DNA of 10,454 bases from Nostoc sp. CHAB 5834 (lineage in GTDB: Bacteria; Cyanobacteriota; Cyanobacteriia; Cyanobacteriales; Nostocaceae): the NCBI GenBank assembly GCA_020829485.1, contig JAIVFU010000173.1, forward strand, positions 1-10,454, in the 5' to 3' direction. A program made the translations under genes and the position numbers. The notes under the pieces are model-generated. The model worked only from the letters and a program-made list of their open reading frames with translations. It searched no databases and was not told the origin of the DNA. How positions within the stretch are numbered: position 1 is the first letter of the stretch; the number at the start of each line of letters is the position of its first letter. This document shows positions 1 to 10,454 of this stretch, piece after piece.

Positions 1-1450
1 TGCCGTCGCTGTCGACCGCGACCGTCACGGGGAAGTCCTGCACCTCGAACTCGTAGATCGCTTCCATCCCAAGGTCGGCAAAGCCAACGACCTTGCTGCC
101 CTTGATCGCGCGCGCCACCAGATAAGCCGCGCCGCCCACGGCCATCAGATAGGCGCTTTTGTGTTTCGCGATTGCCTGTGTCGCGGCTGGGCCGCGTTCC
201 GCCTTGCCGACGCAGGCGAGCAATCCCTGATCGAGCATCATGTCCATAAACTTGTCCATCCTTGTGGCCGTCGTCGGGCCAGCCGGGCCAACGACTTCCT
301 GGCCGACGGGATCGACGGGGCCGACATAATAGATCATTCGGCCTTTAAAGCTGACCGGCAATTCCTCGCCAGCCGCAAGCATATCGGCGATGCGTTTGTG
401 CGCCGCGTCGCGCCCCGTCAGCATCTTGCCGTTGAGCAGGAGCCGGTCGCCCTGTTTCCAGCCCTGCACCTCAGCTGGCGTAAGCGTATCGAGATTTACG
501 CGTTTCGCGGCGGCATCGGGTTGCCAATCGACCTTGGGCCATTCATCCAGATTCGGCGCCGCCAGATAGGCTGGCCCCGCCCCGTCGAGTGTAAAATGCG
601 CATGACGGGTCGCGGCGCAATTCGGGATCATCGCGACTGGCTTGCCAGCCGCATGGCACGGCGCGTCCAGTATTTTCACGTCCAATATGGTCGACAAACC
701 GCCCAGCCCCTGCGCGCCGATACCAAGCGCATTCACGCGGTCGAATATCTCGATGCGAAGCGCCTCGATATCGTTCTGCGGCCCACGTGCTTTTAACGGC
801 CCCATGTCGATCGGCTCCATCAGCGCCTGCTTGGCGAGCAGCACGCAATGCTCCGCCGTGCCGCCGATGCCGATGCCAAGCATCCCCGGCGGGCACCAAC
901 CGGCACCCATCAGCGGCAACATCTCGACCACCCAGTCGGCAATATTATCCGAAGGGTTCATCATCTTGAACTTCGACTTATTCTCGCTGCCGCCGCCCTT
1001 GGCCGCGACATCGACGCTGACCTTATCGCCGGCGACCATTTCGACATGAAGAACGCACGGCGTGTTGTCCTTGGTATTGCGCCGCGTAAAAGCGGGGTCA
1101 GCCAGCACCGAGGCGCGCAACTTGTTATCGGGGTGGAGATAGGCGCGGCGCACGCCTTCGTCGACGACGTCCTGCAAAGACCGCGAGGTGTCATCCAAAC
1201 GGCAATCCATGCCCCATTTGACGAACACATTGACGATGCCGGTATCCTGACAGATCGGCCGGTGCCCCTCGGCACACATCCGGCTGTTGGTCAGGATCTG
1301 CGCGATGGCGTCCTTGGCGGCGGGACTTTGCTCGGCCTCATAGGCTTCGCCCAGCGCATGGATATAATCCATTGGGTGGAAATAGCTGATATATTGTAGC
1401 GCGTCGGCAATGCTTTCGATCAGATCGGCGGTTTTGATAGTGATGGTCAT
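1..1450 (-). CDS. Class I fumarate hydratase (partial, C-terminus beyond the window)
   Basis: This gene encodes the oxygen-sensitive [4Fe-4S] fumarase that interconverts fumarate and malate in the TCA cycle in the cytoplasm. Reading the minus strand from an ATG at 1450-1448 gives 483 codons without a stop up to the window edge; class I fumarases are usually about 500 residues, so roughly 20 are missing. Three cysteines sit in family-typical contexts and are the expected cluster ligands: C67 (RPICQDTG), C186 (GWCPPG) and C278 (PNCAATRH). The N-terminal alpha and C-terminal beta parts are fused, as in the single-chain FumA type. The start is supported by the N-terminus MTITIKTADLIESIADAL, typical of sphingomonad homologues; only a weak GGAA lies upstream. 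A 10-bp hairpin lies in its leader (1460-1498). It is transcribed divergently from the EF-hand gene. The family call is firm; paralogue naming (fumA or fumB) is not attempted. Confidence 0.95.
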   Translation of the reverse strand, partial: MTITIKTADLIESIADALQYISYFHPMDYIHALGEAYEAEQSPAAKDAIAQILTNSRMCAEGHRPICQDTGIVNVFVKWGMDCRLDDTSRSLQDVVDEGVRRAYLHPDNKLRASVLADPAFTRRNTKDNTPCVLHVEMVAGDKVSVDVAAKGGGSENKSKFKMMNPSDNIADWVVEMLPLMGAGWCPPGMLGIGIGGTAEHCVLLAKQALMEPIDMGPLKARGPQNDIEALRIEIFDRVNALGIGAQGLGGLSTILDVKILDAPCHAAGKPVAMIPNCAATRHAHFTLDGAGPAYLAAPNLDEWPKVDWQPDAAAKRVNLDTLTPAEVQGWKQGDRLLLNGKMLTGRDAAHKRIADMLAAGEELPVSFKGRMIYYVGPVDPVGQEVVGPAGPTTATRMDKFMDMMLDQGLLACVGKAERGPAATQAIAKHKSAYLMAVGGAAYLVARAIKGSKVVGFADLGMEAIYEFEVQDFPVTVAVDSDG

Positions 1451-1459
1451 AACATGTTT

Positions 1460-1498
1460 CCGTGGCGCTGCATCTTGCCAACGCCCATAGCGCCACGG
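1460..1498 (-). promoter_or_regulatory. 10-bp hairpin in the fumarase leader
   Basis: CCGTGGCGCT (1460-1469) is a perfect inverted repeat of AGCGCCACGG (1489-1498) with a 19-nt loop. On the fumarase mRNA the stem ends about 9 nt before the ATG and would lie against the weak ribosome-binding region. It could modulate translation or mRNA stability, or be a binding site. There is no T-run, so it is not an intrinsic terminator. The structure is visible; its role is inferred. Confidence 0.4.
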
Positions 1499-1558
1499 CA
1501 CGGGGATTCAAGCATTTGCGCTGACTTCAATTGTGTTCGGGTCGAACCAGATCAGATC

Positions 1559-1603
1559 TCGGGTTGTTAAGCTGAAGTGCAACGCTTCACCCGATATTTT
1601 TTT
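1559..1603 (+). terminator. Orphan terminator-like hairpin with T7 run
   Basis: TCGGGT (1559-1564) pairs with ACCCGA (1589-1594), and GAAG (1574-1577) pairs with CTTC (1585-1588). Seven Ts follow at 1597-1603. It faces plus-strand transcription, yet no plus-strand gene lies upstream within the window. It could end a small RNA transcribed from about 1500, or it could be chance in an AT-rich stretch. The internal loop is asymmetric, so the stem is not strong. Confidence 0.3.
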
Positions 1604-1759
1604 CCAAATAAAGATGAACCGACGCGGTTCTGATGTTGAGCTGTCATCTGCACCGGAATCAGGATTTAATGTGGAAACCTTATCTCTATCTAGTGTGTTG
1701 AGCTACCCGATATCATCCGGCTTTGTGCATTTCACACTGCATATGTTGTGATGAGATCA

Positions 1760-1772
1760 GCGGAAGTTCCGC
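1760..1772. promoter_or_regulatory. Short palindrome upstream of the EF-hand gene
   Basis: GCGGAA-G-TTCCGC is a perfect 6-bp inverted repeat with a one-base centre, ending 12 bases before the AGGAG ribosome-binding site at 1785-1789. Its symmetry and place fit a repressor operator or a 5' UTR hairpin. No regulator is recognised. Confidence 0.3.
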
Positions 1773-1796
1773 ACATACTAATTCAGGAGATTGACT

Positions 1797-2201
1797 ATGT
1801 TACGCATATTAACCGCTTCGAGCATATTGGCGCTGGCCACTGTTCCAGCCATGGCGCAGCAAGCAGATCCAGCGGCTCCAGCCGGCCCGGAAATGACGAC
1901 CGAAACAACGACCGAGACTGCACCCACGACAGCCGCTGCACCCGCAGCAGAGCCACGTGAAGTCACCGTTGCCAAATTGGTCGACGCCGAATTTCCTGTC
2001 TATGACGCTGACAAGAGCGGCGAACTGGAAGAACCCGAATTCTCCAAATGGCTGCTCGCGCTTCACGCCGCTGGCGGTGATGCAAAAGCCATGGACGATG
2101 CAGCGAAGGCCAAATGGGCGAAGGATGGTTTTTCAGCCGCCGATGCCGACAAGAGCCAGAAAATCAGCCAAGCCGAGATGAACAAATTTCTCGCAGGCTA
2201 A
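1797..2201 (+). CDS. Secreted EF-hand calcium-binding protein
   Basis: This encodes a 134-residue exported protein. Residues 1-20 form a Sec signal peptide (short positive start, hydrophobic core, AMA-QQ cleavage site). A low-complexity Ala/Pro/Thr/Glu linker spans about 21-55. Two EF-hand loops follow: loop 1 at residues 70-81 (DADKSGELEEPE, with D70, D72, S74, G75 and E81 in canonical positions) and loop 2 at 116-127 (DADKSQKISQAE), where the usual glycine at position 6 is Q121. The ATG at 1797 is chosen because AGGAG (1785-1789) is 7 nt upstream; the in-frame TTG at 1791 would sit too close. It probably binds calcium in the periplasm. Small secreted EF-hand proteins of this layout are common in sphingomonads, but their specific role is not known to me. 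It stands alone, closed by a strong terminator. Confidence 0.85.
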   Translation: MLRILTASSILALATVPAMAQQADPAAPAGPEMTTETTTETAPTTAAAPAAEPREVTVAKLVDAEFPVYDADKSGELEEPEFSKWLLALHAAGGDAKAMDDAAKAKWAKDGFSAADADKSQKISQAEMNKFLAG

Positions 2202-2224
2202 CTTAAAAAAATCCCTCTCCCCTG

Positions 2225-2284
2225 GGACCGGACCAGTCCGGTCCACCTGTCGGGCCTGGATATCACATCCGGGCCCGAATTTTT
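2225..2284 (+). terminator. Double-hairpin intrinsic terminator after the EF-hand gene
   Basis: Two hairpins follow the stop codon. The first pairs GGACCGGAC (2225-2233) with GTCCGGTCC (2236-2244). The second is a 12-bp stem, 2250-2261 with 2267-2278 (one G-U pair), with a 5-nt loop ATCAC, followed directly by ATTTTT (2279-2284). The second has the full form of a Rho-independent terminator. Confidence 0.85.
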
Positions 2285-2492
2285 ATGGTTGGGCGTTTAA
2301 AAGAGCGCGGACAGCTCAATCGGCGCCCATATCAACGCATCTGCATAAATTTTTCGATACCGTAGTTTTCCATCTTGCGCGCAAAAAACTGCTTAGCAAG
2401 TCCACGCGTCGCTGCGTTGCAACAGCCTTTTGACTGCGATGAGTGGAATCACAATAGCGACGAATTGAGTGGTTAATTTACCATTTACCCTC

Positions 2493-2521
2493 TTGCGTCT
2501 GAAATTGGTTGAGGCACTATA
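2493..2521 (+). promoter_or_regulatory. Candidate nrdA promoter (-35/-10)
   Basis: TTGCGT at 2493-2498 and ACTATA at 2516-2521 are separated by exactly 17 bases, a good sigma70-like arrangement. The -10 overlaps the first candidate NrdR box, as expected of a promoter repressed by NrdR. The implied transcription start is near 2528. Confidence 0.45.
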
Positions 2522-2561
2522 GGTAGCGGTAGGCCGTAGGGGGCATCACCACAGATTGTGC
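2514..2561 (+). promoter_or_regulatory. Candidate tandem NrdR boxes
   Basis: Compared with the NrdR-box form ACACTATATATAGTGT, positions 2514-2529 match 11 of 16 (core CACTATA) and positions 2546-2561 match 10 of 16. They start 32 bases apart, about three helical turns, the spacing known for paired NrdR boxes upstream of ribonucleotide reductase genes. NrdR is the ATP/dATP-sensing repressor of nrd genes. Individual matches are imperfect; spacing, position and overlap with the -10 are what make the case. Confidence 0.45.
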
Positions 2562-2684
2562 TCAAAGCTGCAGACAGCGATTCTGCCGGTGGGGATATTT
2601 TCCCGTCGATAAGCTGGGGACAAGTCGAATTTAGCACCCCCTAAGGTCCAAATAATGTTAATAGGGTCACTTGCGTCCCGAGTC

Positions 2685-2699
2685 GAACAAGACGGGAAC
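2685..2699 (+). promoter_or_regulatory. SOS (LexA) box upstream of nrdA
   Basis: GAAC (2685-2688), seven bases, then GAAC (2696-2699) matches the alphaproteobacterial LexA site GAAC-N7-GAAC. It lies 83 bases before the chosen nrdA ATG. The spacer is more GC-rich than in the best LexA sites, so affinity may be modest. The same stretch can also fold as a weak hairpin (CCC 2677-2679 with GGG 2694-2696), an alternative reading. Confidence 0.5.
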
Positions 2700-2782
2700 A
2701 ACGATTTCCGTCGCATATATCGGGCGGTTGCGGCCACGGGGTGATCCCGCGACTCGCCAAACAGAATGGAGCTGGGGCTAAA

Positions 2783-4750
2783 ATGGATTTCAGAGATACA
2801 GGCCGGGAGGCCGGAGCGGATATCATGTCGGACATATTGGAAAGTGAAATGGTCGAAAATTTGGCGAGCGAAGCGCTTGTTAAAATGGCCAAAGCCGCGA
2901 CCAACACCGACGACGGCTATGAAAAAGCTGAGAGTGACAGCAAGTCGGTCGACGTGCGCCGTTTCAGCATCGTTACCGACAACAGCCGTGACGCGCTGCT
3001 GACCGAATTCGGCAAGGACACGTTGCAGGACCGCTATCTGTTGCCGGGCGAGAGCTATCAAGACCTGTTTGCGCGTGTGGCGTCGGCTTATGCCGATGAT
3101 CAGGACCATGCGCAGCGGCTCTATGATTATATCTCGAAGCTCTGGTTCATGCCAGCGACGCCCGTTCTCTCGAACGGCGGCACCGGTCGCGGTCTGCCCA
3201 TTTCATGCTACCTCAACAGCGTCGACGACAGCCTTGAAGGCATTGTCAACACCTGGAACGAGAATGTCTGGCTCGCCAGCCGCGGCGGCGGCATCGGCAC
3301 CTATTGGGGCCATGTGCGCGGCATTGGCGAGCCTGTCGGCCTCAATGGCAAGACCAGCGGCATCATCCCGTTCGTCCGCGTGATGGACAGCCTCACGCTG
3401 GCGATTTCGCAAGGTTCGCTTCGCCGTGGCTCGGCCGCCTGCTATCTTGACGTCTCGCACCCCGAAATCGAGGAATTTCTCGAAATCCGCAAGCCGTCGG
3501 GCGATTTCAACCGTAAGGCGTTGAACCTGCACCACGGCGTATTGCTGACAGACGAATTCATGGAAGCCGTCCGCAATGGCGACGAATTCGACCTGCGCAG
3601 CCCTAAGACTGGCGAAGTGCGCTCGACCGTCGATGCGCGCAGCCTGTTCCAGAAGCTCGTCGAAACCCGCCTTGCCACCGGCGAACCCTACATCATCTTC
3701 AGCGACACCGTGAACAACGCGATGCCGAAGCATCACCGCGATCTCGGGCTGAAGGTTTCCACTTCCAACCTTTGCAGTGAAATCACTTTGCCCACGGGTC
3801 GTGACCATCTGGGTAATGATCGCACCGCGGTCTGCTGCCTGTCGTCGCTCAACCTTGAAACCTGGGATGAGTGGAATGGCGACAAGGTCTTTATCGAAGA
3901 CGTGATGCGAATGCTCGACAATGTGCTTCAGGATTTTATCGACCGCGCACCCAAGGAAATGGCCAGAGCGAAATATTCCGCCGCGCGCGAACGCTCGGTT
4001 GGCTTGGGCGTCATGGGCTATCACAGCTTCCTGCAATCACGCGGCGTTGGCTTTGAAAGCGCGCTCGCCAAATCGTGGAATATGAAGTTCTTCAAGCATA
4101 TTCGCGCGCAGGCCGACGAGGCATCGATGATGCTGGCCAACGAGCGCGGCGCCTGCCCCGATGCCGAGGATATGGGCGTGATGGAGCGGTTCTCCTGCAA
4201 GATGGCAATTGCGCCCACCGCGTCGATCTCGATCATCTGCGGCGGCACCAGTGCCTGCATCGAGCCGATCCCGGCCAATATCTACACGCACAAGACTTTG
4301 TCGGGCAGCTTCATCGTCAAGAATCCGTATCTGGAGAAGCTGCTTCAGGCGAAGGCGAAGGACAGCACGAACGTGTGGAACTCCATCCTCGAAAAGGGCG
4401 GCTCGGTCCAGCATCTCGATTTCCTGACGCCAGAGGAAAAGGACACGTTCAAGACCAGCTTCGAGATTGACCAGCGCTGGCTGATCGAACTTGCCGCCGA
4501 CCGCACGCCCTATATCGACCAGGCGACCTCGCTGAACCTTTACATCCCCGCCGATGTGGAAAAATGGGATCTCCTCATGCTCCACTTCCGCGCTTGGGAA
4601 TTGGGTGTGAAGTCGCTATATTACTTACGTTCGAAGAGCATCCAGCGCGCTGGCTTTGCCGGCGGCGTAGAGGCGGACAACACCGTCGAAGCCCCCGTGA
4701 TGGAGCTCGCCGCGCAGACTGATTACGAGGAGTGCCTTGCATGTCAGTAA
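2783..4750 (+). CDS. nrdA: Class I ribonucleotide reductase large (alpha) subunit NrdA
   Basis: This is the catalytic subunit that reduces ribonucleoside diphosphates to deoxyribonucleotides with NrdB in the cytoplasm. It has 655 residues from the ATG at 2783. Catalytic features are all visible: redox pair C142 (ISCYLN) and C351 (TAVCCLSS), active-site N329-C331-E333 (NLCSEITLP), radical-transfer tyrosines Y613-Y614 (SLYYLRSKS), and the C-terminal CLAC pair C651/C654 that is re-reduced by thioredoxin or glutaredoxin. C142 corresponds to C225 of the 761-residue E. coli protein, so about 85 N-terminal residues, the ATP-cone, are absent. The start is not certain: in-frame alternatives are GTG 2741 (would overlap a possible leader peptide stop) and ATG 2825. 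The 2783 start is preferred because its N-terminus MDFRDTGREAGA resembles sphingomonad homologues and GGAG lies 11 nt upstream (2768-2771). nrdB follows after a 487-base interruption carrying a DUF559 gene. Confidence 0.95.
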   Translation: MDFRDTGREAGADIMSDILESEMVENLASEALVKMAKAATNTDDGYEKAESDSKSVDVRRFSIVTDNSRDALLTEFGKDTLQDRYLLPGESYQDLFARVASAYADDQDHAQRLYDYISKLWFMPATPVLSNGGTGRGLPISCYLNSVDDSLEGIVNTWNENVWLASRGGGIGTYWGHVRGIGEPVGLNGKTSGIIPFVRVMDSLTLAISQGSLRRGSAACYLDVSHPEIEEFLEIRKPSGDFNRKALNLHHGVLLTDEFMEAVRNGDEFDLRSPKTGEVRSTVDARSLFQKLVETRLATGEPYIIFSDTVNNAMPKHHRDLGLKVSTSNLCSEITLPTGRDHLGNDRTAVCCLSSLNLETWDEWNGDKVFIEDVMRMLDNVLQDFIDRAPKEMARAKYSAARERSVGLGVMGYHSFLQSRGVGFESALAKSWNMKFFKHIRAQADEASMMLANERGACPDAEDMGVMERFSCKMAIAPTASISIICGGTSACIEPIPANIYTHKTLSGSFIVKNPYLEKLLQAKAKDSTNVWNSILEKGGSVQHLDFLTPEEKDTFKTSFEIDQRWLIELAADRTPYIDQATSLNLYIPADVEKWDLLMLHFRAWELGVKSLYYLRSKSIQRAGFAGGVEADNTVEAPVMELAAQTDYEECLACQ

Positions 4751-4755
4751 ATAAT

Positions 4756-4809
4756 TCCCTCTCCCATAGGGAGAGGGAGGGAGGCGCGTAGCGCCGGAAG
4801 GGTGAGGGT
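4756..4809 (+). repeat. REP-like palindromic unit, left flank of the DUF559 gene
   Basis: Starting 5 bases after the nrdA stop, this unit contains a perfect hairpin CCCTCTCCC-ata-GGGAGAGGG (4757-4777), a second perfect hairpin GGCGC-gta-GCGCC (4783-4795), and then GGAAGGGTGAGGGT (4796-4809). A related unit in opposite orientation lies at 5162-5219. GC-rich dispersed intergenic repeats of this type are common in sphingomonads. The first hairpin lacks a T-run but could slow transcription or protect the nrdA mRNA end. Confidence 0.7.
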
Positions 4810-5185
4810 CACCAGTTTGCGGACCTATCGAAACCAACCTTCTGGCACTATCTCCCGCGCAAGAGAATTGCGCAAAAATGCCACCGAAGCTGAAAAGCGG
4901 ATGTGGCGGGCGCTTCGGGAAAATTTCCGGGGCGCAAAGTTCCGGCGGCAGGTGCCCATTGGCCCCTATTACGCCGATTTTTTCAGCTTCCCCGGGAAGC
5001 TGGTCGTCGAAGTCGATGGCGGGCAGCACGGGGAAGCACAGGACTATGACGCAAGGCGCACAGCCTTTCTGGAAGCTCAAGGCTTCCGCGTCATCCGGTT
5101 CTGGAACAATGATGTGCTGTCCAATATGGAAGGCGTTATAGCCACTGTAGCGGAGAGCATGTCACCCTCACCTTCCCAAGCCTGA
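4802..5185 (+). CDS. DUF559 endonuclease-fold protein
   Basis: This 127-residue protein belongs to the DUF559 family, which has a PD-(D/E)XK/Vsr-like nuclease fold. Family marks are ARELRKNATEAEKRMWRAL (20-38), KFRRQVPIGPYYADF (46-60), VVEVDGGQH (68-76) and GFRVIRFWNNDV (94-105). D59, E70 and D72 are the likely metal ligands. Its substrate is unknown. The start is unclear: GTG 4802 lies inside the left repeat with no spaced ribosome-binding site, while TTG 4817 has GAGG (4804-4807) 9 nt upstream. The last residues (SPSPSQA) are encoded by the right-hand repeat, so both ends of the frame run into palindromic units. It splits nrdA from nrdB, genes normally adjacent, which marks it as an insertion. 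A role in mobilising its own repeat-bracketed cassette or in DNA repair is conceivable but unproved. Confidence 0.85.
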   Translation: MRVTSLRTYRNQPSGTISRARELRKNATEAEKRMWRALRENFRGAKFRRQVPIGPYYADFFSFPGKLVVEVDGGQHGEAQDYDARRTAFLEAQGFRVIRFWNNDVLSNMEGVIATVAESMSPSPSQA

Positions 5186-5219
5186 CGGCTCGGGCCCCTT
5201 CCTCTCCCGGTGGGAGAGG
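5162..5219 (-). repeat. REP-like palindromic unit, right flank of the DUF559 gene
   Basis: In mirror order to the left unit it has TCACCCTCACCTTCC (5162-5176), the reverse complement of the left unit's end with one base missing; a small hairpin AGCC-tgac-GGCT (5179-5190); and CCTCTCCC-ggt-GGGAGAGG (5201-5219). The two units are therefore inverted repeats around the DUF559 gene. It ends just before the nrdB ribosome-binding site (GGAG 5227-5230). Confidence 0.7.
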
Positions 5220-5237
5220 CGAATTTGGAGCAAGAAG

Positions 5238-6290
5238 ATGTCACTGTTAGAAGCCCGTAATAGCTACAAGCCCTTTGAATATCCCTGGGCCTATGACTTC
5301 TGGAAACGCCAGCAGCAGATTCACTGGTTGCCCGAAGAGGTGCCGCTGGGTGAGGATTGCCGCGACTGGGCGCAGAAGCTTTCGGATCATGAACGCAACC
5401 TGCTCACGCAAATCTTCCGCTTCTTCACTCAGGCCGATATCGAGGTGCAGAATTGCTACCATGAAAATTACGGCCGCGTGTTCAAGCCGACCGAGGTCAA
5501 GATGATGCTGACCGCGTTTTCCAACATGGAAACCGTCCACATCGCGGCGTACAGCCACTTGCTCGACACCATCGGCATGCCCGAAAGCGAATATAGCGCC
5601 TTCCTCGAATATGAGGAAATGGCCGCAAAAGTCGATTATATCCACCAGTTCGGCGTCGACAGCGATGAAGATATCGCCCGCACGCTCGCGATGTTCGGCG
5701 GCTTTACCGAAGGGCTACAGCTGTTCGCCTCGTTCGCGATGCTGATGAACTTTCCGCGCTTCAACAAGATGAAGGGCATGGGGCAGATCGTATCCTGGTC
5801 GGTCCGCGACGAAAGCCTGCACTGCGAAGGCATCACAAAACTGTTCCACGCTTTTTGTGCAGAGCGCGGCTGCCTGACCAAGGCGGTGAAGGAAGACATT
5901 ATCGATTGCTGCCAGAAGGTCGTCCGTCTGGAAGACAGCTTCATCGACCTCGCGTTCGAAATGGGCCCCGTGCCCGGCATGACCGCCAAGGAAATCAAGC
6001 GCTACATCCGCTACATCGCCGACTGGCGTCTGGGCCAATTGGGCCTGCCCGCGATCTACATGGTCGAAGACCACCCGCTGCCCTGGCTCGCGCCATTGCT
6101 CAACGGAGTCGAGCACGCCAACTTCTTCGAAACCCGCGCAACCGAATATAGCAAAGCCAGCACCCGCGGCGATTGGGGCCAGGTGTGGAACAGCTTCGAC
6201 AACCGCAAAAAGAAGATCATCGGCATTGAGCCAGCCGCCGAGAATGACGGCATGGATATGTTTGAGCAGGCAGGGGTTGCGGCTGAATAG
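5238..6290 (+). CDS. nrdB: Class I ribonucleotide reductase small (beta) subunit NrdB
   Basis: This is the radical-generating subunit that partners NrdA. It has 350 residues. The di-metal ligands are visible in order: D67 (QADIEVQ), E98 and H101 (METVHIAAY), E158 (FTEGLQLF), E192 and H195 (RDESLHCEG). Y105, seven residues after E98, is placed like the tyrosyl-radical Y122 of E. coli. There is no N-terminal ATP-cone. The ATG at 5238 has GGAG (5227-5230) 7 nt upstream. The stop (6288-6290) shares its last base with the GTG of the brnT-type toxin gene. The last 89 bases (6202-6290) are repeated, diverged, at 6801-6888; because the intact frame ends here, this copy is the functional end. Transcription probably comes from the nrdA promoter through the DUF559 interruption unless an internal promoter exists. 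Confidence 0.95.
   Translation: MSLLEARNSYKPFEYPWAYDFWKRQQQIHWLPEEVPLGEDCRDWAQKLSDHERNLLTQIFRFFTQADIEVQNCYHENYGRVFKPTEVKMMLTAFSNMETVHIAAYSHLLDTIGMPESEYSAFLEYEEMAAKVDYIHQFGVDSDEDIARTLAMFGGFTEGLQLFASFAMLMNFPRFNKMKGMGQIVSWSVRDESLHCEGITKLFHAFCAERGCLTKAVKEDIIDCCQKVVRLEDSFIDLAFEMGPVPGMTAKEIKRYIRYIADWRLGQLGLPAIYMVEDHPLPWLAPLLNGVEHANFFETRATEYSKASTRGDWGQVWNSFDNRKKKIIGIEPAAENDGMDMFEQAGVAAE
6202..6290 (+). repeat. First (functional) copy of duplicated nrdB 3' end
   Basis: These 89 bases, encoding RKKKIIGIEPAAENDGM through the stop, recur at 6801-6888. Aligned by eye, the copies differ by five substitutions and one single-base deletion. All five substitutions are synonymous in the nrdB frame. Confidence 0.9.
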
Positions 6291-6577
6291 TGTTTGAAAT
6301 TGACGACGCAAAGGCCATGATCAATTTTGAAAAGCACGGCCTGCCGTTGAAAGCCGCTATTCTTCTGTTCGACGGGCCCTTTATCGAAGAGGAAGATAAA
6401 CGGATCGATTACGGCGAAACGCGTTTCGTTGCCACCGGGCCAGTTGCCCGATTTGCCAACCGTATATGTGTTGCGGTATACACGTGGCGCGGCCCGGTTC
6501 GCCGCATCATCAGTTTCAGGAAAGCCAATGACAAAGAAGTCAGAAAATATCAGGCAAGTGTCCAGGGAAGAAGCTGA
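6290..6577 (+). CDS. brnT: BrnT-family toxin (RelE-like ribonuclease)
   Basis: This 95-residue protein matches the BrnT family of type II toxins, small RelE-fold ribonucleases that cleave RNA and are neutralised by BrnA. Family marks are the N-terminal FEIDDAKAMINFEKHGL (2-18), with the F-x-x-D-x-x-K-x-x-x-N-x-x-KHG pattern, VAVYTWRGPVRRIISFRKAN (61-80) and the closing DKEVRKY (81-87). The GTG start at 6290 overlaps the nrdB stop by one base (TAGTG), implying translational coupling to nrdB. The antitoxin frame begins inside it with a 50-base overlap, the usual BrnT-then-BrnA order. It lies between the two nrdB 3' ends, so it probably arrived by insertion or recombination. BrnTA modules normally autoregulate; no own promoter is seen, so expression may depend on nrd transcription. 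Confidence 0.85.
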   Translation: MFEIDDAKAMINFEKHGLPLKAAILLFDGPFIEEEDKRIDYGETRFVATGPVARFANRICVAVYTWRGPVRRIISFRKANDKEVRKYQASVQGRS

Positions 6578-6752
6578 TGCTGAAGCCAAGGCTTGGGCCA
6601 CGCCCGAGAATTTGGCGTGGTTTGACGCCCTGACTGACGAAGACATCGCCAAACAGATCGCCGACAACCCGGACGCCGCGCCAGAGCTAGACGACGAATG
6701 GTTCGAAAATGCGCGGCTGGTTATTCCGTTGAAGGGAAAGAGGGCAGCGTGA
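6528..6752 (+). CDS. brnA: BrnA-like antitoxin, apparently lacking the ribbon-helix-helix domain
   Basis: This 74-residue protein follows and overlaps the BrnT gene. The ATG at 6528 is preceded by AGGAAA (6518-6523). Residues 33-48 (DALTDEDIAKQIADNP) and 52-64 (PELDDEWFENARL) are typical of BrnA-family toxin-binding parts. In most BrnA proteins a basic beta-strand and a ribbon-helix-helix DNA-binding domain follow the 'FENARLV.P' segment; here the protein ends ten residues later (KGKRAA). This is therefore either a naturally short form or a C-terminal truncation. The stop lies 27 bases from a REP-like palindrome and 48 from the nrdB remnant, a recombination junction, which favours truncation. 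If so, it may still bind the toxin but not repress transcription. Pairing with BrnT is secure from position; the truncation is inferred. Confidence 0.7.
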   Translation: MTKKSENIRQVSREEADAEAKAWATPENLAWFDALTDEDIAKQIADNPDAAPELDDEWFENARLVIPLKGKRAA

Positions 6753-6778
6753 GTAAAAATCATTCACTTGCCCCGAAT

Positions 6779-6799
6779 GCCCTGAGCCTGTCGAAGGGC
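6779..6799. repeat. REP-like palindrome at the recombination junction
   Basis: A 21-base element with arms GCCCT (6779-6783) and AGGGC (6795-6799) around GAGCCTGTCGA. This matches a dispersed intergenic repeat I recognise as frequent in sphingomonad and other proteobacterial genomes. It ends one or two bases before the nrdB remnant begins at 6801. Confidence 0.65.
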
Positions 6800-6800
6800 G

Positions 6801-6888
6801 ACCGCAAGAAGAAGATCATCGGCATTGAGCCAGCGGCCGAGAATGACGGCATGATATGTTCGAGCAGGCAGGGGTTGCGGCGGAGTAG
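6801..6888 (+). pseudogene. Detached, frameshifted second copy of the nrdB 3' end
   Basis: These 88 bases repeat the last 89 bases of nrdB (6202-6290), ending at the same stop (TAG 6886-6888). Relative to the functional copy there are five substitutions, all synonymous in the nrdB frame, and one deleted base near 6853 (ATGATATG against ATGGATATG) that shifts the frame. No start or upstream nrdB body is attached. It is a remnant left by insertion or recombination that placed brnTA and the REP-like element in between. The synonymous-only divergence shows both copies once evolved as real nrdB ends. Confidence 0.9.
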
Positions 6889-6899
6889 GGACGACCTGA

Positions 6900-7400
6900 A
6901 TGTTCGACAAACTCGACGCCTACAATATCGTCGCAAATTTGGTGCCTGGCGCTGCACTTGTTTATGCACTTCACTTTTCTGGATTTCCTTCTCCTAACCC
7001 AGAAAAAATAGGTGCATTTTTGTTAGTTGCTTTTGTCGCGGGGGTGACGGCCAATCGTATTGGATCGTTGGTTTTGGATCCCTTATTGCGCTGGAAGAAA
7101 ATTGGTTTCTTATTTGAGAAAGACTATCCAGCTTTTGTTGGCTTGGAAAAGGAAGATGAGAAACTCGAAACTCTTGTTGCGAATTCAGGACTATACCGAA
7201 CATTTTTTACTGCTGGGTTGATATATCTTATGCTGTTAGGCACTGACCTATGGCTTACTAAAATAGATGCTACCAATCGTGAAATTTTCATAGATTTAGT
7301 AGTTATCGGTATGATAGTATTTTTGTTCGCTCTCCGTAAAGAGGATGGATATATCAAAAGTCGGATAGATAAAGTAAAGAAAGAATCTACGAATACATAA
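6900..7400 (+). CDS. AT-rich four-helix membrane protein of unknown function
   Basis: I do not assign this 166-residue protein to a named family. Four membrane segments are visible at about residues 10-28, 37-58, 99-120 and 128-145. A charged segment (65-97, with FEKDYPAFVGLEKEDEKLE) lies between helices 2 and 3, and a basic tail (146-166) follows. Both termini are probably cytoplasmic. The start ATG follows AGGGA (6887-6891) by 8 nt; that site overlaps the stop of the nrdB remnant. The gene is conspicuously AT-rich: sampled 60-base lines at 7201 and 7261 are 38% and 28% GC, against 63% in an nrdA line, pointing to transfer. It sits directly upstream of a restriction-modification system, so a role in defence (a membrane effector, for example) is possible but is an inference from neighbourhood only. 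Confidence 0.75.
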   Translation: MFDKLDAYNIVANLVPGAALVYALHFSGFPSPNPEKIGAFLLVAFVAGVTANRIGSLVLDPLLRWKKIGFLFEKDYPAFVGLEKEDEKLETLVANSGLYRTFFTAGLIYLMLLGTDLWLTKIDATNREIFIDLVVIGMIVFLFALRKEDGYIKSRIDKVKKESTNT

Positions 7401-7404
7401 ATTT

Positions 7405-7433
7405 TTGACGTCTAACCGTGCTCAATCTTAATT
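7405..7433 (+). promoter_or_regulatory. Candidate promoter of the restriction-modification operon
   Basis: TTGACG (7405-7410) is followed after 16 bases by CTTAAT (7427-7432), a fair sigma70-like pair in an AT-rich gap, giving a leader of about 50 nt to the ATG at 7491. A second TTGACG (7454-7459) closer to the gene has only a poor -10 (CAAGAT, 7479-7484) and would give a nearly leaderless mRNA. Either could be used. Confidence 0.3.
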
Positions 7434-7490
7434 GGAAATGTTGAACTTCCCTCTTGACGATTGCCTAGCACCGCTTCACAAGATCTCATT

Positions 7491-8150
7491 ATGTTCTCAT
7501 CTGAAACGCCTTTGAGTGAAGCCACCATTGATCTGCTAGCAAAAGCGCGAGGGCGACGATTTGGAACGATCCTTGCCGATCCCCCTTGGCAATTTCAAAA
7601 TAGAACTGGAAAGGTCGCACCTGAGCATAAGCGGCTGAACCGCTACGATACAATGACTTTAGATGAAATTTGCTCGTTACCGGTGGCGGATGTCGCCGCC
7701 GAGCCGTCGCACCTTTACCTCTGGGTACCGAATGCACTGTTGCCAGATGGTCTCAAAGTGATGGACGCTTGGGGTTTTAGATACATTTCGAATATAGTCT
7801 GGCATAAGGTTCGCAAGGATGGCGGGTCGGATGGGCGCGGTGTCGGTTTTTATTTCCGCAATGTGACTGAAATCCTACTGTTCGGCGTGCGCGGCAAAAA
7901 TGCGCGGACGCTTGGTCCAGGTCGAAGTCAAGTTAACATGATCCAGTCGATGAAGCGCGAACATAGCCGCAAGCCCGACGAGCAGTATAAGATTATCGAA
8001 GAATGCAGCTGGGGTCCACGCCTCGAAATGTTCAGCCGGGGCAAACGGCAGGGCTGGGACGTATGGGGCAATCAGGCCGATGATAGTTATAAGCCGACAT
8101 GGGACACTTACGCATATAATAGCCGGACGACACTGGAGGCTGCGGAATAG
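7491..8150 (+). CDS. MT-A70 family DNA adenine methyltransferase (type II modification subunit)
   Basis: The 219-residue product carries the MT-A70 family pattern: catalytic DPPW at residues 30-33 (ILADPPWQFQ), LYLWVPNALL (75-84), the GFRYISNIVWHKV segment (95-107), ILLFGVRG (128-135), HSRKPDE (158-164) and LEMFSRGKRQGWDVWGN (178-194). The family transfers methyl from S-adenosylmethionine to N6 of adenine. The next gene is a BglII/BstYI-type endonuclease 3 bases downstream, so this is most likely the protecting methylase of a type II system. ATG 7491 is preferred; no Shine-Dalgarno is evident, and a TTG at 7461 in frame is an alternative. An AGATCT site at 7481-7486 lies just ahead of the ATG. 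Recognition sequence is not determinable here, though an A within a GATC-centred site fits both genes. Confidence 0.88.
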   Translation: MFSSETPLSEATIDLLAKARGRRFGTILADPPWQFQNRTGKVAPEHKRLNRYDTMTLDEICSLPVADVAAEPSHLYLWVPNALLPDGLKVMDAWGFRYISNIVWHKVRKDGGSDGRGVGFYFRNVTEILLFGVRGKNARTLGPGRSQVNMIQSMKREHSRKPDEQYKIIEECSWGPRLEMFSRGKRQGWDVWGNQADDSYKPTWDTYAYNSRTTLEAAE

Positions 8151-8153
8151 GCT

Positions 8154-8744
8154 GTGACCACCGCACATCTCGTTCCACCAGAAATTGCTGCACGTTACGA
8201 AGTCCATGAGTGGCGCAATGCCGTCGGCGTGCTGACCACAGCCTGCCCTCAAGAATGGGCTGAGATATTGGTGGCCTTACAATCGTTCAAATTGCTTCGA
8301 AGCGAGGTCCTTGCAGCGGGTGGCAATCGATCCTCGATAGTTGAGCGGCTTGAACGTCCTCTTAAAGAACTTGATTGGGTCGAAAAGCATTTTGCGACGG
8401 CCATTGTCGTTGATGGCGTAGAAACCGCGTCGCCAACGCATAGTGTTGATTGCTTCAAAGGCCGGGTAGCGCTGGAAGTGGAATGGAACAACAAGGACCC
8501 ATTTTACGACCGTGACCTAAACAATTTCCGTCTGTTATTCGATTTGCAAGTAATTGACGTTGGCATAATCATCACCCGCTGCTCTGAATTACAGTCGATT
8601 TTCAATTCGCTCGGTAAAGGCAGCAGCTATGGCGCTTCAACCACGCACATGAATAAGCTACTTCCACGCTTAAAAGGTGGTTCCGGCGGCGGATGCCCTA
8701 TTGTCGTTTTCGGGATCAGCTCTGCGCTTTACGTTGAAGACTGA
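8154..8744 (+). CDS. BglII/BstYI-type type II restriction endonuclease
   Basis: This 196-residue protein fits the BglII/BstYI endonuclease family. The active-site segment is at residues 96-121: D99, E108 and E110 (VDCFKGRVALEVEW), followed by NNKDPFYDRDL. The spacing D-x8-E-x-E equals that of BglII residues D84, E93 and Q95, with E in place of Q. The family cuts GATC-centred hexamers (AGATCT for BglII, RGATCY for BstYI), so a related target is likely but unproved. The GTG start at 8154 follows the methylase stop by 3 bases; GGAGG (8135-8139) inside the methylase end is rather far, so translation is probably coupled. Methylase-before-nuclease order and tight coupling are usual for type II systems. 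No controller protein gene is seen. Confidence 0.85.
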   Translation: MTTAHLVPPEIAARYEVHEWRNAVGVLTTACPQEWAEILVALQSFKLLRSEVLAAGGNRSSIVERLERPLKELDWVEKHFATAIVVDGVETASPTHSVDCFKGRVALEVEWNNKDPFYDRDLNNFRLLFDLQVIDVGIIITRCSELQSIFNSLGKGSSYGASTTHMNKLLPRLKGGSGGGCPIVVFGISSALYVED

Positions 8745-8780
8745 CTAAAGTCCCCCTTCAACCTCCCCTTAACCACCCCC

Positions 8781-9045
8781 ATGCCATTCTCCACGAACGG
8801 CCCGCGACTCGTTCCTTAAAACCGCTGCTCCTTTGGTCGTCCTGACCTTTCTTGCCGTATATAACTTTCCGGCCGTGACCGAGGAAGAAATCGCGGCGCG
8901 CGATGCGGTGGAACAATCCGTATATTATGAAGGCTGCAACGAAGTGCGCGCCGCCGGCAAAGCCCCGCTATATCGCGGCAACCCCGGCTACGGCGAACAT
9001 ATGGACGGCGATGGCGACGGCGTGGCGTGTGAGCCGTATTACTGA
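8781..9045 (+). pseudogene. Excalibur-domain small secreted/anchored protein, N-terminus apparently frameshifted
   Basis: The open part runs 8833-9045 (70 residues from a TTG). Its C-terminal half is an excalibur calcium-binding domain: YYEGCNEVRAAG (31-42), YRGNPGYGEHMDGDGDGVAC (47-66), with aspartates D58, D60 and D62 and the cysteine pair C35/C66. The N-terminus reads as a cut-off signal anchor (VVLTFLAVYNF). The same frame continues upstream as FLKTAAP without a usual start until a stop at 8770. An ATG at 8781 in another frame gives MPFSTNGPRL; removing one base near 8811 joins it to FLKTAAPLVV, giving a normal positively charged, hydrophobic leader. So either a one-base insertion (real or a sequencing error) has broken the gene, or translation starts at TTG 8833 without a Shine-Dalgarno. 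Such proteins are usually exported. Confidence 0.65.
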
Positions 9046-9086
9046 GAGCGAATTCTCCTCTCCGGCTTCATAAATCACCTCGAAAA

Positions 9087-9101
9087 GAACATATATAGAA
9101 C
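9087..9101 (+). promoter_or_regulatory. SOS (LexA) box
   Basis: GAACATATATAGAAC is a perfect alphaproteobacterial LexA site (GAAC-N7-GAAC) with the AT-rich alternating spacer typical of strong sites. It lies 37 bases before the ATG at 9139 in a 93-base intergenic gap, placing it in the promoter of the 9139 gene. Confidence 0.8.
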
Positions 9102-9138
9102 ATAAGCTGCCGACGGGATCACAGCGGCGGGCGATCAA

Positions 9139-9408
9139 ATGGACGAAATCACCAATGCCGACCGCGCCGAATGGGCTTTGGCTGCACTTAGCAATTTTGT
9201 CGCGGCGACAAAAGTTGACACTGCGCGCGACGCTATCGCCGACCTGATCGCCAACCTGCTTCACCTCGCGCGCGGTCGCGGACTGGAAGTGGATTTGCTA
9301 TTGGATCAAACCCGAAAGTTGATGACCGAAGAATTTGCCGAGGACCCCGAAGGCGACATGGCCATCGTTCAAGAACGCTTTCGCGAGTTGCTTCCTTATG
9401 ACGGTTAA
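9139..9408 (+). CDS. Uncharacterised 89-residue protein behind an SOS box
   Basis: I do not recognise a named family. The product is small, acidic and probably all-helical: NADRAEWALAALSNFVAAT (6-24), TARDAIADLIANLLHLARGR (28-47) and VDLLLDQTRKLMTEEF (51-66), ending in an acidic stretch and a final helix. There is no signal peptide or membrane segment, so it is cytoplasmic. The pattern 'DLIANLLHLARGRGLEVDLLLDQ' resembles short hypothetical proteins I associate with sphingomonads, without known function. The ATG at 9139 has only a weak G-rich sequence upstream. A strong SOS box lies in its promoter, so induction by DNA damage through LexA cleavage is expected. The DUF4160/DUF2442 pair begins 33 bases after its stop and may be co-transcribed, though a hairpin separates them. 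Confidence 0.75.
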   Translation: MDEITNADRAEWALAALSNFVAATKVDTARDAIADLIANLLHLARGRGLEVDLLLDQTRKLMTEEFAEDPEGDMAIVQERFRELLPYDG

Positions 9409-9416
9409 TCTTGAAA

Positions 9417-9434
9417 AACCCATCCGATTGGGTT
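9417..9434. promoter_or_regulatory. Hairpin between the SOS-linked gene and the DUF4160 gene
   Basis: AACCCA (9417-9422) and TGGGTT (9429-9434) form a perfect 6-bp stem with a TCCGAT loop, 7 bases before the DUF4160 ATG. On the plus strand no T-run follows, so it is not a clear terminator for the upstream gene. On the minus strand it is followed by TTT, but no minus-strand gene ends here. It may be an operator or may limit translation of the next gene. Confidence 0.35.
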
Positions 9435-9441
9435 ATAGCAT

Positions 9442-9690
9442 ATGGTAACGGTGCATCGCGAAGCCGGATTTCGCTTTGTGATCTTCAAGGACGATCATGA
9501 ACCGGCGCATGTTCATGTCTATTACGGCGGCGCTGAAGTGAAGATTGCATTGGGAATAAAACGTGGCAGCCCCGAGAACATTCGGAATTACGGTATGCGA
9601 ATGTCCGATGTCCGGAAGGCTTTGAAAATGGTAACCGCGCAGCAACCGCTGCTGCTGGAGAAATGGAAAGAAATTCATGTCGGAAAATAA
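9442..9690 (+). CDS. DUF4160 family protein
   Basis: This 82-residue protein has the DUF4160 pattern: GFRFVIFKDDHEPAHVHVYY (9-28) with the EP-x-HVHV core, a short strand region (AEVKIALG, 31-38), and a C-terminal helix pair (MRMSDVRKALKMVTAQQPLLLEKW, 52-75). The function of the family is not established. Its last 14 bases overlap the start of a DUF2442 gene, a pairing seen repeatedly in bacteria that suggests a two-component module, possibly toxin-antitoxin-like; that role is inference. ATG 9442 has no clear Shine-Dalgarno and is preceded by a small hairpin. Confidence 0.85.
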   Translation: MVTVHREAGFRFVIFKDDHEPAHVHVYYGGAEVKIALGIKRGSPENIRNYGMRMSDVRKALKMVTAQQPLLLEKWKEIHVGK

Positions 9691-10105
9691 GTCGGCCAAG
9701 AAAAAGCCAATACTGACCAAAGCCGAATATGATGCGGCGGTCGAACGCGGGCGCGTCTTTCGCGAAACCGTCCCCCACGCGGTCGCCGCGCGTTACGACG
9801 CTGGATCGGGCCGGGTCATTGTTGACCTCACCAACGGCTCCACCTTCGCCTTCTTCCCGCAATATCTGCAAGATATGGAGCATGGAACGCCCGAGCAGTT
9901 TGCCGAAGTCGAAGTACTTGGTTCGGGCTACGGCTTACATTGGGAATCGCTGGACGCCGACTTTACCGTTCCCGGCCTGCTCAACGGCATATTCGGCACC
10001 GCCAAATGGATGGCACAAAAAGCGGGCCAGACCACCTCGCCTGCCAAGGCCGCTGCCGCACGCGCCAATGGGGCGAAGGGCGGACGGCCACGCAAGGCGG
10101 CTTAA
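9677..10105 (+). CDS. DUF2442 family protein with basic C-terminal tail
   Basis: The 142-residue product contains a DUF2442-type core at about residues 35-95: ARYDAGSGRVIVDLTNGSTF (38-57), FFPQYLQDM (59-67), then EVEVLGSGYGLHWESLDADF (78-97), the closing 'GYGLHWESLDADFTVPGLL' pattern typical of the family. The C-terminus (PAKAAAARANGAKGGRPRKA) is Ala/Gly/Arg/Lys-rich with GRPRK, an AT-hook-like sequence that may bind DNA. The start at 9677 lies inside the DUF4160 gene with GGAAAG (9665-9670) 6 nt upstream. The tail makes it the likelier DNA-binding, regulatory partner if the pair is a toxin-antitoxin-type module. No enzyme activity can be assigned. Confidence 0.85.
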   Translation: MSENKSAKKKPILTKAEYDAAVERGRVFRETVPHAVAARYDAGSGRVIVDLTNGSTFAFFPQYLQDMEHGTPEQFAEVEVLGSGYGLHWESLDADFTVPGLLNGIFGTAKWMAQKAGQTTSPAKAAAARANGAKGGRPRKAA

Positions 10106-10109
10106 GCCG
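10098..10109. repeat. 12-bp perfect palindrome
   Basis: CGGCTTAAGCCG spans the DUF2442 stop codon and ends 3 bases before the DUF1294 ATG. It could be an operator or a translation-blocking stem for the downstream gene. Only the symmetry is seen. Confidence 0.3.
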
Positions 10110-10112
10110 TCC

Positions 10113-10403
10113 ATGCAATATCTCACCCCAACCAACCTGGTCTGCGCCTTCGCACTGGTGAACCCGTGGACCTTCATGCTGTTCGGCCTCGACAAGATCC
10201 GCGCCGAGGAAGGCACGTGGCGTGTGTCGGAGGGGACGCTGCTGACCTGGGCGTTTCTCGGCGGCATCATCGGCGCTTACACCGGCCGCGCGGTGTTCCG
10301 GCACAAGACGCGCAAGCAGCCCTTTTCAAGCCACCTGCACCAGACTGCGATATTTCAGCTCTTCGCCGCCGCGCTCGCTGGTGGATGGATGCTTGCAGGC
10401 TGA
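10113..10403 (+). CDS. DUF1294 family membrane protein
   Basis: This 96-residue protein matches DUF1294: an N-terminal hydrophobic segment (8-26, CAFALVNPWTFMLFGLDKIR) that includes the family's 'GLDK' motif, RVSEGTLLTWAFLGGIIGA (37-55) and the strongly conserved FRHKTRKQPF (62-71), then a third hydrophobic segment (78-95). It is an inner-membrane protein of unknown function. The ATG at 10113 begins 7 bases after the DUF2442 stop with no proper Shine-Dalgarno (AAGGCGG 10094-10100 is 12 nt away), suggesting translational coupling or a leaderless start. Length is normal for the family. It looks like an ordinary chromosomal gene. Confidence 0.85.
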   Translation: MQYLTPTNLVCAFALVNPWTFMLFGLDKIRAEEGTWRVSEGTLLTWAFLGGIIGAYTGRAVFRHKTRKQPFSSHLHQTAIFQLFAAALAGGWMLAG

Positions 10404-10419
10404 CCTGCACATCATTTTT
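10394..10419 (+). terminator. Candidate terminator at the end of the DUF1294 gene
   Basis: TGCAGG (10394-10399) pairs with CCTGCA (10404-10409) around the loop CTGA, which holds the stop codon, and TTTTT follows at 10415-10419. The stem is short and the T-run begins 5 bases late, so this is a moderate candidate. Confidence 0.4.
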
Positions 10420-10454
10420 CCCCGCCTCCCGAAAAACACCGGATAGCCATTCTA

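Follow-up and report, generated by a model that had tools for sequence, protein, structure and literature searches.

Our results show that interchangeable defence and toxin-antitoxin genes occupy a slot at the stop codon of nrdB, the gene for the small subunit of ribonucleotide reductase. We analysed a stretch of 10,454 nucleotides (positions 1 to 10,454 on the forward strand of contig JAIVFU010000173.1, assembly GCA_020829485.1, deposited as Nostoc sp. CHAB 5834), which we call the window. Here the 3' end of nrdB occurs twice: the toxin-antitoxin pair BrnTA follows the intact gene, and a second, spare tail of nrdB stands before a candidate defence gene and a pair of restriction-modification (R-M) genes. 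Spare tails recur in related genomes in front of different cargo genes. With a probability of about 0.55, a second cargo was stacked behind the first by recombination within the nrdB tail, and its 5' junction is the spare tail that was left over.

The repeated nrdB tail

Repeat searches first show the repeat in two registers, 53 nt at 96% identity and 36 nt at 92%, offset by one base. Aligned as a whole, 6202-6290 and 6801-6888 are equal in 83 of 89 columns, with a local alignment score of 146 against at most 27 in 20 shuffles. The two tails differ by five substitutions (6209, 6236, 6263, 6284 and 6287), each a synonymous third-position change in the nrdB frame, and by one base opposite 6254 that is absent from copy 2, where its loss breaks the frame. 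For a random single change here, the chance of being synonymous is about 20%. Five out of five has a p value of 0.0003 if both copies were free to change, and of 0.004 if copy 2 alone was. The alignment agrees with an earlier sequence-only reading of the window, which had listed the same differences and had argued that the repeat is not a recent simple tandem duplication. That reading had also noted that the toxin start overlaps the nrdB stop, and indeed the GTG of BrnT shares one nucleotide with nrdB, the last base of the TAG at 6290.

The copies are 510 bp apart, and the R-M genes (7461-8744) lie outside the span 6202-6888. No third tail copy was found below E 0.1 in the searched stretch (the next best match has 0.2). 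An assembly error is an unlikely source of the repeat because a clearly different genome, G022, whose nrdB is 87% identical in nucleotides, shows the same gene order in different bases.

Second nrdB tails in related genomes

We searched 45 genomes of the window's own genus (Sphingorhabdus-like), fetched 40 nrdB loci and analysed 41 including the window. Three genomes with nrdB fragments (G008, G025, G026) were not fetched, G013 and G039 have no nrdB match, and in G037 nrdB is split between contigs. A profile of the nrdB 3' end, run on the nrdB strand, finds a second 3' end in 11 of the 41 loci (E ≤3e-7). These second tails start 143-732 bp downstream and all lie within about 850 bp of nrdB. 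A search of both strands gave eight second matches, every one on the nrdB strand. Comparable self-repeats are rare in other genes: they occur in 10 of 41 nrdB genes (G031 falls below the score used here) versus 2 of 286 other long open reading frames (ORFs) of the same loci (Fisher p ~2e-8).

Among the 80 closest loci, some of which have short downstream stretches and one of which (L063) has none, only L001 and L003 carry a second tail (scores 58 and 66; next best 34), and both belong to the genus. Candidates from outside the genus reached at best a DNA score of 34 (L009, L013) and a protein score of 44 (L071), and none was accepted. We refer to G001, G003, G017, G029, G031, G035 and G043 as clade A.

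Interchangeable cargo in the slot

Different defence systems occupy this one conserved chromosomal site across strains, which is what characterises a defence hotspot. Among the first genes after the nrdB stop or after copy 2 are a dCTP deaminase (G003), a Drt4 reverse transcriptase (G017), bSEFIR (G001), an AAA protein of PDC-S59 (G011), HNH (G023), AbiTii (G045), AbiD (G046), an AbiJ-type gene (G020) and PDC-M04A (G033). Second or later slot genes include a ThsB-type TIR gene (G035), GmrSD/NsnA (G014), a C5-methylase with NaeI (G022) and a PDC-S35 TIR protein (G012). The cargos found behind second tails are dCTP deaminase, Drt4, bSEFIR, the ThsB-type TIR gene, GmrSD/NsnA, and an M48A protein that is followed either by C5-methylase and NaeI or by MT-A70 and BglII. 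Some assignments are weak: SIR2 in G031 (E 4e-4), HEPN in G043 (below cut-off) and a TIR effector in G009 (E 5e-8); slot genes in G010, G021, G028 and G040 are likewise weak or unassigned. The slot of G029 is broken up by a transposase, and several loci of the genus carry no defence-type gene near nrdB.

The slot reaches beyond the genus, with matching cargo families at nrdB in differently named genera. Relatives of MT-A70 and BglII lie behind nrdB in L019, L026, L032 and L040, a C5-methylase in L007, L041, L047 and L055, and DUF4160/DUF2442 in L008, L012, L045 and L056. A BglII-type match is present in 28 of 298 family genomes (the match in G220 is weak), and in 15 of these 28 the gene lies at most about 2.1 kb from nrdB, 13 times behind it and twice in front. 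The other 13 genomes have it far off on the same contig (4), have it on another contig (7) or lack an nrdB match (2). In the two genomes with the gene in front, G053 (L204) and G071 (L193), it stands immediately upstream of nrdB. In view of these two cases, a second slot may exist upstream of nrdB.

In L178 (G020), the sequence about 200-250 nt after nrdB resembles the stretch before copy 2 of G017, without a copy 2 of its own, and the AbiJ-type gene starts there.

The seam between tail and cargo

In 9 of 10 measurable loci the cargo starts between -4 and +14 nt from the stop of copy 2 or of the leader frame that runs through it. The offsets are -4 (G014), 14 (G022), -4 (G003), 11 (window), 9 (G031), -1 (G017), 3 (G043), 3 (G001) and 0 (G035), with G024 at 49 nt. 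Starts were taken by the longest-ORF rule, except in G035, where a 72-aa ORF was picked by eye, and G029 is not measurable. Of the 30 genus loci that lack a second tail, 9 (8 without G037) have an ORF in the direction of nrdB that begins -3 to +28 nt from its stop.

The inner slot, between the nrdB stop and the second tail, contains BrnTA in the window, BrnTA and DUF2442 in G022, and DUF4160/DUF2442 in G024. The same BrnTA position is found outside the genus set in L068, where nrdB is followed directly by BrnTA and no second tail. After BrnTA of L068 a DUF2442-like end was read by eye, which tblastn did not find. Because L068 carries BrnTA at nrdB without a second tail, the BrnTA position may be older than the repeat. 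The sequence-only reading had treated brnTA as the newcomer at nrdB, which is not necessarily so, since BrnTA adjoins the nrdB stop in G022 and L068 as well. Hence, it may be the M48A/R-M cargo, with its own tail, that came later. Also expected had been strains free of brnTA in which the membrane-protein gene follows nrdB after about 12 nt. No such strain was found among 114 loci (first 4 kb); the membrane gene is present in two of them, the window and G022, both times behind BrnTA and a second tail. The L068 record itself is titled Actinobacteria bacterium 21-64-8, its NrdB is 81% identical to that of the window, and it is probably mislabelled or contaminated.

Between the window and G022, identity is 0.83-0.85 in BrnTA, 0.87 in nrdB and 0.69 in the M48A gene, whose product in the window shares 64-70% of amino acids with that of the gene behind G022 copy 2. 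It looks as if the inner slot and nrdB had aged together while the outer cargo had a history of its own.

In clade A, a terminator-like sequence is common to five of the seven loci and a promoter-like stretch to six. We considered whether the promoter-like stretch is a copy of the nrdA promoter, left by a collapsed nrdAB duplication, and rejected this, as the sequence upstream of nrdB matched it convincingly neither in six loci nor in the window. A slot relic in G006 taken for an antitoxin was dropped as well, as Pfam gave no support. In L158 (G038), about 170-320 nt after nrdB, a stretch similar to the promoter-like sequence of clade A is seemingly fused to the inner part of a channel-like gene. 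Judged by eye, the fusion point is a short stretch (CGCGGCGATTG) that nrdB contains too, and the arrangement looks like the loss of a second tail via microhomology.

Exchange of nrdB tails

The closest relative of the window is G006, and the two nrdB genes are 0.967 identical in the head and 0.969 in the body, but only 0.827 in the last 150 nt. The break is abrupt, at about 6149, 142 nt before the nrdB end. The window tail follows that of its kin (0.92 to G009, with 0.924 in the body), while the tail of G006 has a best match of 0.833 anywhere in the sample. Hence, the exchange probably took place in G006. This directly documents a single tail exchange in the group, but not the event behind the window repeat. 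Across 25 close pairs the median tail identity is 0.023 under that of the body, and the median head identity 0.003 above it. For 12 chosen pairs the best breakpoints are -141, -75, -101, -105, -144, -441, -105, -101, -74, -108, -93 and -60.

In the window (0.933; next 0.888), G022 (0.893) and G014 (0.834), copy 2 has its closest match in copy 1 of the same locus. In all seven other loci compared (six of clade A and G024; G035 was outside this comparison) it is nearer to the tail of another genome than to its own. The sequence-only reading had an nrdB end come, together with brnTA, from a related strain. Because copy 2 of the window is nearest to its own copy 1, the comparison does not show an import from another sampled lineage there. 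What is supported of that reading is that accessory DNA lies variably at the 3' end of nrdB, that a tail was exchanged within the group and that the repeat did not arise by a simple tandem duplication of recent date; the history of integration or recombination at the end of nrdB is not supported in the form in which it was told.

Other features of the window

NrdB of the window is 98% identical in amino acids to that of S. rigui and S. contaminans. In G006 the counterpart of the right-flank DUF1294 gene starts at most about 260 nt from nrdB, and the window therefore has about 3.6 kb of extra DNA at the slot. The features are listed in the table.

Table. Features in and around the nrdB slot of the window
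Feature	Position	Strand	Evidence or remark
nrdB, small subunit of ribonucleotide reductase; anchors the slot and flanks it on the left	5238..6290	+	Pfam PF00268, E 8.4e-76
Apparent recombination breakpoint relative to closest relative G006	6149	none	~97% identity before, 0.83 across last 150 nt
Copy 1 of nrdB 3' end, functional tail	6202..6290	+	self-alignment
BrnT toxin, GTG start	6290..6577	+	PF04365, E 2.2e-19; 87% aa identity to G022, equivalent position
BrnA-like antitoxin, overlaps BrnT	6528..6752	+	95% aa identity to G022 gene, 65% to L068
Possible leader frame; GTG overlaps BrnA stop, enters copy 2 in nrdB frame, broken by 1-nt deletion	6749..6888	+	
CCCTGAGCCTGTCGAAGGG motif adjoining truncated left edge of copy 2	6780..6798	none	sequence
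Copy 2 of nrdB 3' end; 1-nt deletion, TAG end 11 nt ahead of next ATG	6801..6888	+	
Membrane-type protein, PDC-M48A candidate defence family	6900..7400	+	PADLOC, E 4.7e-31; no Pfam match
MT-A70 methyltransferase	7461..8150	+	PF05063, E 3.5e-29; PADLOC MTase_II
BglII-type restriction endonuclease	8154..8744	+	PF09195, E 4.9e-45; no PADLOC match
Excalibur calcium-binding protein	8833-9045		between R-M genes and DUF4160/DUF2442 pair
89-aa ORF without family assignment	9139-9408		between R-M genes and DUF4160/DUF2442 pair
DUF4160, DhiT-like toxin	9442..9690	+	PF13711, E 5.5e-13; NCBIfam toxin_DhiT below cut-off
DUF2442, antitoxin-like	9677..10105	+	PF10387, E 6.2e-17
DUF1294 gene, right flank	10122..10403	+	PF06961, E 1.1e-22

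BrnT scores above the PF04365 cut-off and has no NCBIfam match. Its BrnA-like partner gave no match in the Pfam scan; the ORF is in place and is kept with BrnT in G022 and L068, and its name rests on this position and conserved pairing. The pair resembles BrnTA type II toxin-antitoxin systems in having a BrnT family toxin with an overlapping partner. It differs in that the toxin start overlaps the nrdB stop and that Pfam misses the partner. DUF4160 and DUF2442 are given as the pair dhiTA in the available part of PMC8198452.

The CCCTGAGCCTGTCGAAGGG motif is presumably a common sphingomonad repeat; its core matches in 3 of 220 fetched loci. It may have shortened copy 2 at its left edge. Between nrdA and nrdB the window carries a DUF559 gene (4802-5185) enclosed by inverted repeats (4758-4781 and 5196-5219, 88% complementary), and the alignment with G006 is gapped across most of this site. 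An Rfam scan gave a single match, which lies below the gathering score and was taken as chance.

Discussion

How could a spare nrdB tail come to lie in front of a defence gene? We propose that the start codon of an arriving gene comes to lie at the nrdB stop or close to it, so that the gene would be readable with nrdB, or re-initiated after it. Because nrdB itself would serve as the left homology arm, the incoming block would consist of an nrdB tail and its cargo. RecA-type recombination inside roughly the last 150 nt of nrdB would normally replace everything behind it. If a block entered a slot that was already filled and the exchange was incomplete or one-ended, both cargos would be left in series: nrdB, cargo 1, a spare nrdB tail and cargo 2. 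In the window, cargo 1 would be BrnTA, and cargo 2 the M48A protein with the MT-A70/BglII R-M genes. The spare tail would stay as the 5' junction of cargo 2 and may act as a short leader frame that ends next to the start of the cargo.

Several observations weigh against this proposal or parts of it. The exchange in G006 is visible from one side alone, its tail has no close match in the sample, and its nrdB also misses 33 nt internally. In the other pairs, a weaker constraint on the nrdB C-terminus may mimic breakpoints, and two pairs with G024 fall as much or more at the 5' end. Local duplication or gene conversion would also account for the closeness of the two copies in the window. A toxin-antitoxin relic in the inner slot is clear in one of the seven clade A loci (G029, DUF2442), marginal in G001 and not evident in the remaining five, and a clear DUF4160 relic lies in G044, a locus without a second tail. 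The promoter-like match of clade A is no better than in shuffles (1 versus 0.8). On an nrdB tree without G020, G035 and G037, carriers of copy 2 are not shown to cluster (9 changes; 300 of 500 shuffles are as low), and in the protein scan the outside locus L071 equals G003 with a score of 44, which we read as chance. Among the plasmids and phages searched, no molecule with an nrdB tail and cargo was found. Plasmid matches came from two records (nrdB on a Qipengyuania plasmid, a BrnA stretch on an Azospirillum plasmid) and phage matches from none; the BglII-type and BrnT relatives on plasmids are all below 60% identity. Finally, the leader frame of the window is lost. An open frame of at least 25 codons that spans copy 2 and terminates where the cargo begins exists in six of nine loci (the window, G001 and G024 fail) versus a mean of 2.5 in randomised decay (p ~0.008), by criteria that were fixed after the frames had been seen, with shared ancestry ignored and G029 and G035 outside the test.

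The closest analogue of the repeat itself is the prophage e14 at icd of E. coli. One could argue that the nrdB slot arose in the same way, by site-specific integration at the 3' end of an element that brought a replacement tail, in which case the two tails would be attL and attR and the integrase would have been lost or would act in trans. As in an integrative element, a direct repeat of a gene 3' end flanks an insert. According to the available parts of PMC11148124 and PMC6379469, foreign DNA sits at the 3' end of a metabolic gene in e14 too, with a mostly synonymous replacement tail and the displaced tail beyond it; a 165-bp duplication with 12 exchanges, among them two conservative replacements (PMC11148124), is comparable to our repeat in length and in its largely synonymous divergence. 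The second tails of G014 and G017 and the break between the window and G006 also agree in starting 139-148 nt before the stop. However, e14 is in these accounts a prophage of about 15 kb with an integrase, whereas the nrdB slot has small cargos and no integrase found nearby. The sequence-only reading had seen no integrase between the copies, and no Pfam integrase is present among the window proteins scanned. In 18 genomes no Phage_integrase (PF00589) occurs within 10 kb of nrdB (contigs are shorter in G024, G035 and partly G036; the search did not extend to serine recombinases), and G029 has one at about 11 kb. Only 510 bp lie between the copies, with the R-M genes outside. The apparent breakpoints of the pairs examined are spread between -60 and -441, with most of them at -75 to -144, and what lies behind the second tail is variable as well. 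The integrative-element model that had been suggested is weakened by the missing integrase and the varying breakpoints, and we consider it unlikely. R-M genes can insert with a long target duplication, and direct repeats of about 100 bp have been described in association with them (Nobusato 2000; Furuta 2010, as cited in the available part of PMC3874152). In the window, however, it is BrnTA and not the R-M genes that lies between the repeats, and the repeat is the nrdB tail in all 11 loci.

It is similarly improbable that nrdB was partially duplicated in place, followed by drift and gene conversion without any transfer of tails. The window, G022 and G014, with copy 2 nearest to its own copy 1, are as this would predict. 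Against it, copy 2 of each of the seven remaining loci compared is more similar to a tail from a different genome, most copies end close to the start of a different cargo, and control genes rarely show a self-repeat.

The spare tail could also be kept for what it does, as a leader ORF that couples the translation of displaced cargo to its own or provides a context for initiation. In G014, G022, G003, G031, G017 and G043, a frame of 34 codons or more terminates next to the start of the cargo, as does one of 14 codons in G035. In G043 tail homology is lost near the end, yet there is a new stop 3 nt ahead of the cargo ATG. The tails of G022 differ by eight synonymous codons (stop codon included) and three amino-acid changes. 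On the other hand, the amino acids of copy 2 have drifted widely in clade A and are poorly conserved, three loci fail and two lie outside the 25-codon test, and randomised decay yields such frames in 20-53% of runs for the six passing loci. A first decay simulation for selection on the leader proved too lax, and the second gives a modest result. Retention as a translated leader is thus only modestly supported, and as a full explanation of the spare tails it is possible but rather doubtful. Judging from the frames, a leader role that is mostly one of start context rather than of a peptide seems possible.

A bold alternative is that the spare tail makes a NrdB C-terminal peptide that would bind NrdA and lower ribonucleotide reductase activity as a defence. 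C-terminal R2 peptides bind R1 and inhibit the mammalian and yeast enzymes (PMC3483043), phage nrdA and nrdB mutations are found in DRT9 escapers (PMC12483538), both according to the available parts of these papers, and G022, G024 and G014 have near-native tails. Most of clade A has a degenerate tail, the frame is broken in the window, and we regard such a peptide as very improbable.

Stacking by recombination within the nrdB tail remains the reading we favour. It has a more ambitious form, to which we would give little credence: a portable nrdB 3' end, in which spare tails as leader frames would give displaced defence genes their former start context, ordinary homologous recombination would stack and swap immune genes without a mobile-element enzyme, and the leader would in some lineages also yield a NrdB-tail peptide that touches ribonucleotide reductase.

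Defence hotspots flanked by core genes are described for P. aeruginosa (cDHS1/2; PMC10250203), and a defence hotspot locus for S. suis (PMC5398294). As far as the available parts of these papers go, the nrdB slot shares with them that defence systems are interchangeable at one conserved chromosomal place; it differs in being small, in often abutting the nrdB stop and in carrying duplicated gene tails in a quarter of the loci. Among the matches listed in our literature word searches there was no report of a defence slot at nrdB or of spare gene tails before defence genes.

The slot bears on the open question of how defence genes can pass from chromosome to chromosome without an integrase. Our results suggest that the homology arm may here be provided by the essential gene. 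Arrivals would then bring an nrdB end with them, and spare ends would record past arrivals. This route is testable in environmental, partly cultured bacteria. It also provides a simple search rule, since looking for accessory genes that are preceded by the spare end of a conserved gene may lead to further slots and to unknown defence genes.

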